In this document: positions 1 through 12,825 of the stretch, piece by piece | Position numbering within the stretch: position 1 is the first letter of the stretch | How the letters are laid out: each line of letters begins with the position of its first letter | Source of the DNA: Bacillus sp. ISL-45 | GTDB taxonomy: Bacteria; Bacillota; Bacilli; Bacillales; Cytobacillaceae | Direction of reading: 5' to 3' | Assembly: GCF_018613195.1 (NCBI RefSeq) | Contig: NZ_JAGGQQ010000019.1 | Span: 62,001 to 126,000 of the forward strand | Length of the DNA: 64,000 nt | Made by a program: the position numbers and the translations under genes | The notes under the pieces: generated by a model | Told to the model about the DNA's origin: nothing | The model's database searches: none | What the model saw: only the letters and a program-made list of their open reading frames with translations

Positions 1-688
1 ATTATCAGAATCTAAATTAACATTCGTAAGTTCAGCTGGTGTACAGCCCGTGGGCACAATGCCTTTTGACACTGTTCATCCTATAGGAGATTATACATAT
101 CGAAAGGTTCCAACCCATTTAAAACCTGACCAGCTGGAAATTCATCAATTAAAGTACCCCACAATAGGTGCAAATCAGGATATAAATGTGATTTTTCCCA
201 TTGAACGGTTACAGGAATTAGCTGAAGAAGGAGTCATAGGAGGACTCACGGAAAACTTTTTTTCTTTTATTGGATATAATATGGACCCTGAACAACTTGA
301 ACGAAAATTAGCGGAAGATATCGCTGAAGCGGTAGTGAAAGATAATGCGGATATAGCTTTATTAAGCCCTGCGTGACCGATTTGACATCAATCTGTCGCG
401 CTCGTGCAGCGCGCTTTAGAACGAAGGGGAATTCCAACTGTTTCACTATCTGTAGCCCTGGATATAACAGAGCATGCTAAGCCCCCAAGAGCAGTGTTTT
501 TACCTTTCATGATGGGACACCATTTTGGAGTGCCATATCACAAAGAACTTCAGCGAAAAATTATTATTGAGTCTCTAGAACATTTAGTGCAGGCAAAGAA
601 AAGTGGAGAGATTAAATTTCCTCCTTTTACCTGGGCAGAAGCAAGAAAAGAAGGTATTAAAATTAAGAAATCAATGGGATTAAAATAA
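1..688 (+). CDS. GrdB/PrdB-like selenoprotein B family protein with U-x-x-U motif (5' partial)
   Basis: The reading frame is open from base 2 to 688 apart from two TGA codons at 374-376 and 383-385; no TAA or TAG interrupts it. The protein before the first TGA (SSAGVQP..., a PIGDYTYR segment) and after it (HQSVALVQRALERRGIPT, FMMGHHFGVPYH) is continuous and resembles the glycine/sarcosine/betaine/D-proline reductase selenoprotein B family. The two TGAs give A-U-P-I-U-H, a U-x-x-U redox motif. A GC-rich hairpin follows immediately, as expected for a bacterial SECIS. Family knowledge: GrdB and PrdB are selenoenzyme subunits that reduce substrate C-N bonds. Here no partner reductase subunits are visible, so the substrate is unknown and may not be glycine or proline. 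The N terminus lies outside the window. A naive caller would split this gene into two ORFs. A two-stop pseudogene is possible but less likely given the motif and hairpin. Confidence 0.85.
374..413 (+). promoter_or_regulatory. Bacterial SECIS-like hairpin serving two UGA codons
   Basis: A perfect 6-bp stem CGCGCT (397-402) / AGCGCG (408-413) closes the 5-nt loop CGTGC. The stem begins 11 nt after the second TGA. The first loop G (404) is 18 nt from the second TGA and 27 nt from the first, both inside the spacing known to work for bacterial SECIS elements. It is the most GC-rich segment of the gene. One hairpin would have to serve both UGAs. Its role is inferred. Confidence 0.7.
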
Positions 689-6457: not shown

Positions 6458-6536
6458 ATTGAAATTATTTTATACCGCATAAGGAAACTAATCCGGAAAA
6501 TTCCATCTGTTTATATATAGCGGGGGAGGAAAAACA

Positions 6537-8884: not shown

Positions 8885-10237
8885 ATGCAGTTAACGATAC
8901 GGGCTGTTGGTGAGAATGTTCAGGTGATTTCTCACTTGTTGGCGAAAAATCCAAATAATTTGTATGAACGGAATCAGAAAGGCCATGCTGTTAGGCTGTT
9001 TTTCAGCTCTTTTACGGAACGGGAGGTTGAAGCAACGGTGTTTGTTGCACCGGACTCTCTTGAACTGGTAAAAAACCAGGGGAATCAATATGATATAACT
9101 CATTACATAAATGACCGGGAGTTTGCGGTCAGCAGCATTTTCATTTCATTAATCAGGAATGCACTTGGGACTGCGCTTAATGGACAGCCAAAGGAAGACT
9201 ACATTAAGTGGGTGAAGCATCCATTTGATCTTGAAATAAGTTTTGGCCCGGTGGCTTCGGGACTATCGGATCTGCAAATCGTTGACTTATTCGAACCGCT
9301 CGGATTTGATGTGAGCATCAACCGGCCAAAAATTGAGTATAGTTTCAAGCTGAAATCCAAAAGCACTGTCAGGTTTATCACTCTTAAAGGCAGGACAACA
9401 CTGCAAATGGCTTTGCGGCAGATTTTTGTGCTCATCCCCGTATTGGACAATTACAAGCATTATTTTATCGATGAAAAAGAGATTGAGAAACTTAAACGTT
9501 ATGGAGAGGGCTGGCTGGATGACCACCCGCAAAAATCCTTTATTTTAAAGAAGGCATTGCGATTCAAAAATGTGTATGAGCTGGTTGAAGGACAGGAAAA
9601 AGACGCTGCTGCTCCTGAGATGAAAAAAATCCGTCTAAATGATATGCGTTATGAAAAAATCGTGGAAACTGTGAAGGATTTTGAGGATAAGGAAAGCATC
9701 GTCGACCTTGGTTCTGGTGAAGGCAAGCTGAGCACAAGGCTGGGCTTTATCCCTGGTGTGAAAGAAATTCTCGCTGTCGAGCCTTCAGAAGACGCATCGA
9801 TCCGGGCGATGGAGCGATTCGCCCAGGCAGAGGGGAAAGATGATTTTATCAAACCAACCCAGCTATGGGGTTCGCTATTTTACTATGATGAGCGGTTAAA
9901 AGGGAAAGATGTCGTCATTTTATGTGAAGTGATTGAGCATATCGATGAGGACCGGCTTCCGAAAGTGTTCCAGACGATCCTGCAAGACTATCGTCCAAAG
10001 AACCTCGTGGTGACCACACCGAACAAGGAATATAATGCTCTGTATGAAATGGATACGAAATTCAGGCATGGCGACCATCGTTTTGAGTGGACAAGGGAAG
10101 AGTTCGAGGCCTGGTGCAGCGCCAGGAATACCGAAGGAGATTATGAGTTGATTTTCGACGGAATTGGCGAGTTGGACGAACAATTCGGCTTTCCAACTCA
10201 AATGTGTATCTTTAAAAGAAAGGAGGTTTCGGAATGA
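8885..10237 (+). CDS. hen1: 3'-terminal RNA ribose 2'-O-methyltransferase Hen1
   Basis: The 450-residue protein has the bacterial Hen1 layout: an N-terminal domain of about 240 residues that supports the Pnkp ligase, and a C-terminal methyltransferase with SAM motif DLGSGEGKLSTRLG (about 279-292). The metal-dependent catalytic segment 'CEVIEHIDEDRLPK' and 'HGDHRFEWTREEF' follow. Bacterial Hen1 methylates the 2'-OH at a cleaved RNA 3' end before Pnkp seals it, so the repaired junction resists renewed cleavage. The stop overlaps the pnkp start (ATGA, 10234-10237), showing a coupled operon. AAAAGAGG precedes the ATG. Confidence 0.95.
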   Translation: MQLTIRAVGENVQVISHLLAKNPNNLYERNQKGHAVRLFFSSFTEREVEATVFVAPDSLELVKNQGNQYDITHYINDREFAVSSIFISLIRNALGTALNGQPKEDYIKWVKHPFDLEISFGPVASGLSDLQIVDLFEPLGFDVSINRPKIEYSFKLKSKSTVRFITLKGRTTLQMALRQIFVLIPVLDNYKHYFIDEKEIEKLKRYGEGWLDDHPQKSFILKKALRFKNVYELVEGQEKDAAAPEMKKIRLNDMRYEKIVETVKDFEDKESIVDLGSGEGKLSTRLGFIPGVKEILAVEPSEDASIRAMERFAQAEGKDDFIKPTQLWGSLFYYDERLKGKDVVILCEVIEHIDEDRLPKVFQTILQDYRPKNLVVTTPNKEYNALYEMDTKFRHGDHRFEWTREEFEAWCSARNTEGDYELIFDGIGELDEQFGFPTQMCIFKRKEVSE

Positions 10238-12825
10238 GAATTTCAGTGCCGCACGCAGGAATCGTTTTGCTTGTTGGACCATCCAACAGCGGGAAGACAA
10301 CATTGCTTGAAAAATGGAAGGACGAATTAGTCATCGCGCCATCCGAAGTAGTCAGTTCCGATCAATTCCGCGCGCTTGTCAGTGACAAGGAGTTTATGGA
10401 CTGGCGAAACATGCCGAAGGAAGAAGCAGACATCCTGTTTGACGAATACAGCTTGATCTCGAAAGAAGCTTTTACCATGATGGACAGCATGATCCGCACC
10501 AGGTGCAGACTGAATAAGCTAACCTTTGTGGATGCTACCCATCTTCAGCCAGATGATCGAAAAAGATATATCGCGATGGCCAGGGAGAATCATGTCCCGA
10601 TTATTTCCATCGTTCTCGATGTGCCTGAAAAAGTTCTGCTGGAAAGGGACGAGCAGCGGGAGAATCCCCGCGGTAAACGTCGGGTCAAACAGCAATATCA
10701 GGTCTTCACACGGGAAAAACGCTTTATGAAAAAAGAAGGAATCAGGTCCGTATACTTTGTGAAGGAAATCGACCAGCTTGAACTGACAAGACGCAGCCAT
10801 CCACTTGAACTGGAAGCAGATGCTGGGATTGACATCATAGGGGACATCCACGGCTGTTATGATCAGTTGATCGAACTTCTGGAAAAACTCGGCTACAAAA
10901 AAGATGATGAGGATTCTTATTTGCACCCGGATGGCAGGAAGTTCCTCTCTATTGGGGATGTCATGAGCCGCGGTCCGGGATCGCTTAAGAGCATGATGTT
11001 CTTTTACCGCCATGTCCAGAAAGGGCTGGCCTATATGATCGACAGCAACCATGGCTGGAAGATTGCCAGGTGGCTTGATGGAAGAAAAGTCACCCTGTCG
11101 CATGGCGATGAAAAGGTTGAGCAAGAATTTTTGCAGTATGAAGAAGAGAGTGGGGCAGAAGCGGCAGAAGAGTGGAAAAGCAAGCTGAAGGAATTTCTTC
11201 TTCAAGCACCGTCGCATTATATTCTGAAAAAGAACGGCATTCCTGCAGTAGTCTGTGCGCATGCAGGTATTAAAGATGAGTTTATTGGCAAGCAATCGCC
11301 GGAAATCAGTGATTATTGCCGTTATGGAGATACTGATGGTTTTGATGAAAAAGGAAAACCGGTGCGGAAAGACTGGTTCATCGGACACAGCACAAGCCAG
11401 CTGATCGTCTGGGGCCATGATCCGAAGCCTCAGCCGCTGAAAATTAATAATAGTCTCAATATTGACCAGGGTGTTGTTTTCGGCGGAAAGCTCACGGCCT
11501 TCCGTTATCCGGAGAAGCAGATTGTTTCCGTACAGGCGAAGGAGGATTATTCTGGAGTCTCCGATAATCCGCTCCGTGAATGGGAAAAAAGCCGTCTGAA
11601 CCAGCCGAATATCGGCAAATTCCTGAATGGCTATTCTGTGCTGACCGAAGAATTTGGCGAGGTGGCAGTTCCGGCTGAAACGGTCAAACCCGCGATTGAT
11701 GCAGTCTCGCACCACACAATCTCGATCGAGCAGCTGCTCTATATTCCGCCAACGATGAGCCCGACGCCGGTGCCTTCAAATTTGGAACAATTCCTGGAAC
11801 ATCCTCAGGAAGCCATTAATTATTATCGAAGCAACGGAATCGGAAAAATGGTTGCCGAGAAAAAGCATATGGGCAGCCGTGGAATCCTGCTGCTGTTCAG
11901 GGATCTTGAAGCAGCGAAAAAACACGTTGGATCCGAAACACTTGGTGTTATTTATACAAGGACGGGCAGAAGGTTTTTCGAGAAGGATCTTGAGGAAGAG
12001 ATTATTCGCAAACTGAACGAGGATTTGCATCGTCACGATTATTTTTGCAGTAATCAAACGGATTATGTCCTGCTGGACGCTGAAATCATGCCCTGGAACC
12101 TGAAAGCAAAGGAATTAATCAGCAAGCAGTATGCACATGTCGCCGAGAATGCGATCATGGATCGGTCGATGATGATCGAAAAATTAACGGAAGCAGCAAA
12201 AGATAAACAGGACTTGGCAGCCTGGGTCGATGAATACAAGGGAAAATTAAGCAATGCAAAAGAGTTTGCGGAAGTTTTCCAGGGGTACTGCTGGGATGTC
12301 GTCACACTTGATGATATCCAGATTGCTCCGTTCCATGTGCTCGCCCACAGCAGCAGGACGTTCTTTGATGAAACGCATGAGTGGCATATGAAAATGAATC
12401 ACCAGTTTGCTCTCTATTCAAGCTTGTTTGTCGCTACGGAATACAAAGTTATCGACAGTTCGGCCAGTGAGGCAGAAGTGATTGAGTGGTGGGAAGAGAT
12501 GACGAAGGATGGACATGAGGGAATCGTCATCAAGCCGGAGCGATATATTTTGAGAAGCAGAGGTCAATTGCTTCAGCCAGCAATCAAGGTGAGAGGCAGC
12601 AAATACCTAAAAATCATTTATGGAATGGATTATTTGCACCCGGAAAATCTGAAACGACTAAAAAAGCGTAATACCGGCAAAAAACAGAAGCTTGCATTGA
12701 AAGAATTCGCGCTTGGAATCGAAGGAATCCGCCGATTCGTGAACGGAGAATCCATCGAGAGAGTTCACGAGTGCGTCCTTGCCACCCTGGCAATGGAACA
12801 AGATGCCGTGGATCCGCGTTTGTAG
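10234..12825 (+). CDS. pnkp: Polynucleotide kinase-phosphatase-ligase Pnkp
   Basis: The 863-residue protein has three modules: an N-terminal 5'-kinase with P-loop GPSNSGKTT (15-23) and an Arg-rich lid (about 139-165); a central metallophosphatase (GDIHG 204-208, GDVMSRGP 242-249, NHGW 273-276); and a C-terminal adenylyltransferase/ligase with nucleophile K545 in KHMGSR. It heals and seals RNA breaks in a complex with Hen1, typically tRNAs cut by ribotoxins. One oddity: the usual GDxxDRG phosphatase motif reads GDVMSRG, with Ser for the second Asp; the metal-ligand Asp and the Arg remain. It is closed by a hairpin terminator. Confidence 0.95.
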   Translation: MRISVPHAGIVLLVGPSNSGKTTLLEKWKDELVIAPSEVVSSDQFRALVSDKEFMDWRNMPKEEADILFDEYSLISKEAFTMMDSMIRTRCRLNKLTFVDATHLQPDDRKRYIAMARENHVPIISIVLDVPEKVLLERDEQRENPRGKRRVKQQYQVFTREKRFMKKEGIRSVYFVKEIDQLELTRRSHPLELEADAGIDIIGDIHGCYDQLIELLEKLGYKKDDEDSYLHPDGRKFLSIGDVMSRGPGSLKSMMFFYRHVQKGLAYMIDSNHGWKIARWLDGRKVTLSHGDEKVEQEFLQYEEESGAEAAEEWKSKLKEFLLQAPSHYILKKNGIPAVVCAHAGIKDEFIGKQSPEISDYCRYGDTDGFDEKGKPVRKDWFIGHSTSQLIVWGHDPKPQPLKINNSLNIDQGVVFGGKLTAFRYPEKQIVSVQAKEDYSGVSDNPLREWEKSRLNQPNIGKFLNGYSVLTEEFGEVAVPAETVKPAIDAVSHHTISIEQLLYIPPTMSPTPVPSNLEQFLEHPQEAINYYRSNGIGKMVAEKKHMGSRGILLLFRDLEAAKKHVGSETLGVIYTRTGRRFFEKDLEEEIIRKLNEDLHRHDYFCSNQTDYVLLDAEIMPWNLKAKELISKQYAHVAENAIMDRSMMIEKLTEAAKDKQDLAAWVDEYKGKLSNAKEFAEVFQGYCWDVVTLDDIQIAPFHVLAHSSRTFFDETHEWHMKMNHQFALYSSLFVATEYKVIDSSASEAEVIEWWEEMTKDGHEGIVIKPERYILRSRGQLLQPAIKVRGSKYLKIIYGMDYLHPENLKRLKKRNTGKKQKLALKEFALGIEGIRRFVNGESIERVHECVLATLAMEQDAVDPRL

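Follow-up and report, generated by a model that had tools for sequence, protein, structure and literature searches.

A PrdB/GrdB-like selenoprotein with a predicted Sec-x-x-Sec pair and a single SECIS-like hairpin in range of both UGA codons

The closest described systems to the selenoprotein considered here are PrdB and GrdB. In the accessible parts of two reviews (PMC13188914, PMC9312934), GrdB and D-proline reductase are tabulated with the motif UxxC, where U is selenocysteine (Sec), and the text of one or the other of these reviews also gives the GrdB motif as UxxCxxC. Two ocean surveys (PMC2398784, PMC1088965), as far as accessible, likewise give PrdB as UxxC. Two Sec residues spaced as UxxU are listed in the same reviews or surveys for Prx-like proteins, for a putative mercuric reductase/metal-binding protein and for the FmdB family; these are other families, and the accessible parts of the sources make no mention of how a hairpin is placed with respect to two UGA codons. 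Given these listings, paired Sec is rare rather than unheard of, and the claim of rarity made in an earlier note on this DNA holds with that restriction. The limits given for a bacterial SECIS element in the accessible part of PMC13188914 are a loop of 3-9 nt, a stem of 4-16 bp, a G as the first or second base of the loop, a UGA-to-loop distance of 16-37 nt and a folding energy of at most -7.5 kcal/mol. In a search confined to one open-access library, no description of a UxxU protein in the PrdB/GrdB family was encountered. What appears to be new here is UxxU in a PrdB/GrdB-like family, as UxxU itself is already listed for others.

The stretch analyzed, 64 kb from Bacillus sp. ISL-45 (the window), opens inside a gene on the + strand whose motif departs from the tabulated one, with UxxU rather than UxxC. 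The 3' part of the gene occupies positions 1-688, with the frame running from base 2. Before the TAA stop at 686-688, the only in-frame stops are the TGA codons at 374-376 (UGA1) and 383-385 (UGA2), and re-reading gave A-U-P-I-U-H around them, as the earlier note had it. The frame stays open up to an ATG that lies 121 nt 5' of the window, preceded by GGGGGA and read from a 19-kb segment of this contig (L002:9879, equivalent to G000 C12:61879), so the complete gene (G000 C12:61879-62688) would encode a selenoprotein of 269 amino acids with Sec166 and Sec169. Under the standard code the frame breaks into pieces of 165 and 94 amino acids; gene callers can therefore be expected to split it, in agreement with the earlier prediction. 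By comparison of sequences, we put the probability at about 0.87 that this is a PrdB/GrdB-like selenoprotein with Sec166-x-x-Sec169, in which both UGA codons are decoded via one SECIS hairpin.

For family searches, U was written as C in the 269-aa protein. The PrdB equivalog model TIGR04483 scores 138.2 bits over residues 37-252, which misses the cut-off of 300, and Pfam GRDB (PF07355) scores 39.1 bits against a gathering cut-off of 22, at model positions 208-344 of 347 and in the region before the motif. Scores for the NCBIfam GrdB-type models are below their cut-offs, and nothing beyond Pfam GRDB exceeds a specific cut-off among the libraries searched (Pfam, NCBIfam, PHROGs and PADLOC). A sequence search of solved structures returned nothing significant, with best E values of 0.66 and 0.94 for the selenoprotein and for the 96-aa protein encoded next to it. 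On these profile matches the protein is a member of the GRDB superfamily and not PrdB proper, and the GrdB/PrdB kinship proposed in the earlier note holds. It is alignable with PrdB over most of its length as given above and, like PrdB, has Sec in the first motif position; it differs in that PrdB is listed, in the accessible sources, as UxxC with one Sec, and in that its neighbors here are the 96-aa gene and sometimes a nitrilase gene. The likeness to GrdB, which is also listed as UxxC in those sources, exceeds a cut-off only in the Pfam match upstream of the motif. A further comparison is with GRDB-superfamily paralogs in genomes of the same taxonomic family, of which 28 (L026-L053) were read among more matches. 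They are 32-40% identical and have U first in 28 of 28, but Cys second in 28 of 28, with a hairpin loop too near the UGA for a second UGA to be served.

A scan of a genome collection for orthologs yielded 41 loci, with 62-84% identity over the best segment. Five of these have no readable motif (L087, L088, L090, L092 and L093), which leaves 36, or 37 with the window. Four further loci stand outside the counts: L095 and L096 encode the same proteins as L056 and L057, and L097 and L098 are both UxxC. In the alignment of homologs that the earlier note had proposed, the first place is Sec in 37 of 37, and the second is Sec in 14 and Cys in 23. It is possible to read both UGA codons as ordinary stops, with the two frames as separate genes or a remnant, given that the standard code does split the frame; with UGA retained at the first place in every readable ortholog and conserved sequence on either side, that reading is extremely improbable.

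The UxxU loci on the Bacilli side are the window and L057 from Bacillus fonticola. The others are L058 and L077 from one Armatimonadaceae MAG, L059, L085, L089 and L091 from Acidobacteriota, L066 from Rubrobacter, L075 and L084 from Thermomicrobiales, L081 from Chloroflexia, and L072 and L078, which are taxonomically unassigned. The set spans six NCBI phyla and two unassigned MAGs, with the phylum of the window itself taken from its kinship. Near relatives of the window are mixed, as L057 is UxxU and L054-L056 are UxxC. On a maximum-likelihood tree of 36 orthologs and six outgroup rows, which was built without L091 and in which the frameshifted L089 is represented by its second piece alone, at least four changes between UxxU and UxxC are needed, with gain and loss indistinguishable. 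This number of changes suggests that Sec at position 169 is not essential to the family.

The gene is rare among the relatives of its host. It is present in two of 21 genomes of the genus, in one of them as a fragment that ends before the motif, in five of 397 genomes drawn from the order, and among 398 from the phylum in its own genome only. A phage origin was considered and rejected, as there is no PHROGs match and a scan of viral contigs with a 33-row ortholog alignment found no relative. Carriage on plasmids was rejected as well, with 24 plasmid records all below 60% identity, as was a role in anti-phage defense, with no PADLOC match. The two UxxU copies in the Armatimonadaceae MAG are near-identical; the selenoprotein of L077 has an odd stretch near its N-terminus, and in L058 the upstream 96-aa gene is replaced save near its end.

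A reading that requires only one Sec is that UGA1 is decoded and that UGA2 arose by a nonsense mutation or through an error in the reads, such that the protein ends at residue 168. The orthologs closest by identity (L054-L056 and L086, about 84%) do carry Cys at the second place, and UGA2 of the window is one base away from a Cys codon. A mutation private to the genome of the window, or an error in its sequence, was rejected, as UGA2 is present in 13 other loci. The codons that follow are also conserved among the UxxU genes. Over the 95 codons past position 169, dN/dS is 0.08-0.24 in seven UxxU-UxxU pairs and 0.04-0.08 in three UxxU-UxxC pairs, with dS high, at 1.4-2.6, in the pairs that include the window. 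The dN/dS of 0.73 for the upstream half of the L059-L089 pair is meaningless because L089 is frameshifted. Comparison thus supports purifying selection on the downstream part and, with it, translation past UGA2. Taken with a hairpin that lies in range of UGA2, this makes termination at residue 168 very unlikely.

The codon before UGA2 differs between the two kinds of gene. In the window the Ile codon at 380-382 is ATT, but in the 13 other UxxU genes it is ATA, for 13 of 14, as compared to one of 23 UxxC genes (Fisher p 5e-8, uncorrected for kinship). At other Ile positions, counted in 12 UxxU genes, ATA accounts for 22 of 176 codons. Another reading is that a near-cognate tRNA inserts a different amino acid at UGA2, or that translation is programmed to stop or restart there. 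A UGA followed by C is a weak stop context, and C follows both UGA codons; UGA2 also overlaps an out-of-frame ATG in 13 of the 14 UxxU genes. In the 14 UxxU genes, however, the out-of-frame reading at UGA2 extends over no more than 12-32 codons and varies in length; an overlapping gene was rejected on this ground, and an overlapping frame does not account for the preference for ATA either. In addition, wherever residue 169 is not Sec it is Cys, which commonly stands in for Sec. This reading as a whole is highly improbable.

The hairpin CGCGCT-CGTGC-AGCGCG, at 397-413 on the + strand, begins 11 nt past UGA2, as the earlier note had described. Its 6-bp stem, CGTGC loop and energy of -8.1 kcal/mol are within the published SECIS limits, and the spacing to its apical loop is 26 nt for UGA1 and 17 nt for UGA2, which upholds the claim that it is in range of both. 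The pattern is unique in the 64 kb at up to two mismatches and was found in none of 100 shuffles. In 34 of the 37 orthologs the top-scoring stem begins 20 nt past UGA1 and hence 11 nt past codon 169, with a start at 19 nt in L082 and at 21 nt in L094. In L057 the script favored another hairpin; the conserved one is also present, at -6.2 kcal/mol, which falls short of the -7.5 limit. The hairpin is common to the low-GC Bacilli as well. Of the 37 orthologs, 36 have a single hairpin that lies within the limits for both codons, L057 being the exception, versus 0 of 28 paralogs. In the paralogs the loop of the main hairpin is 18 or 20 nt from UGA1, which leaves only 9 or 11 nt between it and the second codon, so that none could serve a second UGA; the energy limit is also missed by 13 of them, with twelve at -7.4 and one at -6.8 kcal/mol.

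Codon-freedom and hairpin-control analyses were carried out on 35 rows, with L089 and L091 left out. A hairpin within the limits for both codons is found in 34 of 35 orthologs; among synonymous recodings the figure is 943 of 7000, and at other codon positions in the same genes it is 253 of 7403. Codon choice is least free at the hairpin, with a mean heterozygosity of 0.32 over eight conserved positions versus 0.58 over the other 145. Across orthologs 99.5% of cells are paired, and one of the six pairs is altered on both sides. With the 3' partners slid by +3, the covariation score is 0.083, versus 0.072 for the true pairing, but only 33.8% of cells are paired. The case for the hairpin as a SECIS element is thus built on position and codon constraint and not on covariation, which is thin. 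The window strand at 374-425, folded alone, has no unusual stability (z 0.25, with 113 of 200 shuffles as good), and Rfam has nothing near its cut-off for the hairpin region.

The genome of the window (4.6 Mb in 27 contigs, 99.84% complete) carries selA (560 bits), selB (366 bits) and selD (395 bits), the last with an in-frame UGA of its own in the context KAGUGCK. A tRNA-Sec is above the Rfam cut-off and is called by ARAGORN as tRNA-SeC with anticodon tca. The search for Sec machinery that the earlier note had advised was therefore positive for all four genes, and of the two outcomes on which that note had staked its reading, neither went against it: the machinery is present, and homologs carry Sec in the first motif position and either Sec or Cys in the second. 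Among 18 ortholog genomes searched, selA is found in 17, in 16 of them over the cut-off; it is absent from the MAG with the UxxU locus L072, and the genome of L091, also UxxU, has a fragment only. In L090, from Terrihalobacillus insolitus, the gene is broken just after the first UGA (about 6495-6528), with the 96-aa gene and selA present.

Directly upstream of the selenoprotein gene, and overlapping its start by 17 nt in the window genome, is a gene for a protein of 96 amino acids, exactly that length in 38 of 41 loci and in the window genome. Three loci lack it; in two of them a contig edge falls within the selenoprotein gene, where the locus begins, and the third, L058, is rearranged. The 96-aa protein has no match in Pfam, NCBIfam, PHROGs, PADLOC or the PDB. 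A nitrilase gene (Pfam CN_hydrolase, with NIT4, other nitrilases and cyanide dihydratases as closest solved relatives) is present at 19 of 41 loci within the flanks that were fetched; twelve of these have it 17-94 nt downstream on the same strand, once as a fragment (L062). None of the eight Bacilli loci has it nearby, with almost no downstream sequence available for L092, nor is it in the 19-kb stretch around the window gene. At E 1e-40 the window genome has no nitrilase match, and nine of 18 genomes searched do, one of them from Bacilli. No paper that treats a selenoprotein, a nitrilase and glycine reductase together was found in the open-access library searched.

Other genes in the surroundings are recorded as separate observations. 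A family with no Pfam or NCBIfam match, which reads WKRTIVYRDE in the window genome, occurs there at L002:3309-3959 (-) and in the flanks of five of 41 loci (L061, L065, L067, L073 and L077). Genes for Hen1 and a Pnkp-type ligase, a bacterial RNA repair pair, are at 8885-12825 (+) of the window (Hen1_L 1.4e-46, PNKP_ligase 2.8e-143). About 3-5 kb before the window is a CadA-type P-type ATPase, at L002:4814-6943 (+), or G000 C12:56814-58943, whose metal site reads GFT-U-A-G-C with a TGA at L002:4877-4879. Among 30 loci fetched from the same family by means of its N-terminal part, this site has U in 29 and Cys in one; the ATPase has matches in 178 of 193 family genomes, and one internal TGA is found in many of the rows listed. 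A Sec-containing cation ATPase, as UxxC, is listed in the accessible part of a review.

Decoding of both UGA codons is strongly supported by comparison, and a mechanism can be proposed in which SelB and tRNA-Sec decode both with the single hairpin. With its loop at 26 nt from the first UGA and at 17 nt from the second, the same hairpin could serve UGA1 first and then UGA2, three codons on, before the ribosome opens it. The chemistry and substrate are matters of inference. First-place Sec is the nucleophile in PrdB and GrdB, and Sec166, never replaced among the orthologs seen, would play the same part. Position 169 would supply the resolving residue, with Sec and Cys exchangeable in evolution, and given this exchange, oxidation would produce a diselenide in UxxU proteins and a selenenylsulphide in UxxC proteins. 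It could also be that two Sec residues are made, but as a ligand for soft metals rather than as a redox center. UxxU is listed for a metal-binding protein in the accessible literature, and genes for the CadA-like ATPase, ArsR, CopC and a CopD-like protein are upstream in the window genome; yet no metal-resistance gene belongs to a neighbor cluster common to three or more loci, and the protein is related to reductases, such that a metal-binding role is unlikely. With a redox pair as the preferred reading, the 96-aa protein would be co-produced with the selenoprotein and is probably a subunit. The nitrilase gene near many non-Bacilli loci may faintly hint at nitrogen-containing or nitrile-derived substrates.

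As to history, the hairpin placed for two codons is the form of all readable orthologs, those with UxxC included, and that placed for the first codon only is the form of the paralogs read, so the simplest course would be that UxxU was the founding state and that Cys169 came later. SECIS-like structures are retained in two Cys sequences derived from Sec ones, FdhA and HesB-like, according to a figure legend in PMC1794560, and by analogy this fits UxxC orthologs as later losses of Sec. Alternatively, a hairpin farther from UGA1 may have arisen first and permitted the second UGA. Tentatively, and at somewhat less than even odds as a whole, the elements may be joined as follows: the SECIS was shifted by about 9 nt to serve two UGA codons, UxxU was the founding state, UxxC losses keep the hairpin, and the AUA retained before UGA2 belongs to the decoding signal; the product would be a diselenide reductase with a 96-aa subunit, in a two-gene system that crosses phyla and is often linked to a nitrilase.

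Because in the libraries searched the 96-aa protein has no match and the selenoprotein has none over a specific cut-off beyond Pfam GRDB, and because its gene is split by standard gene calling, the system has probably been overlooked. Together, the orthologs form a natural series in which much the same protein and the same hairpin come with either one or two UGA codons. Given this series, the rules by which one SECIS serves two stop codons, as well as the chemistry of a diselenide versus a selenenylsulphide, may be tested in matched pairs.
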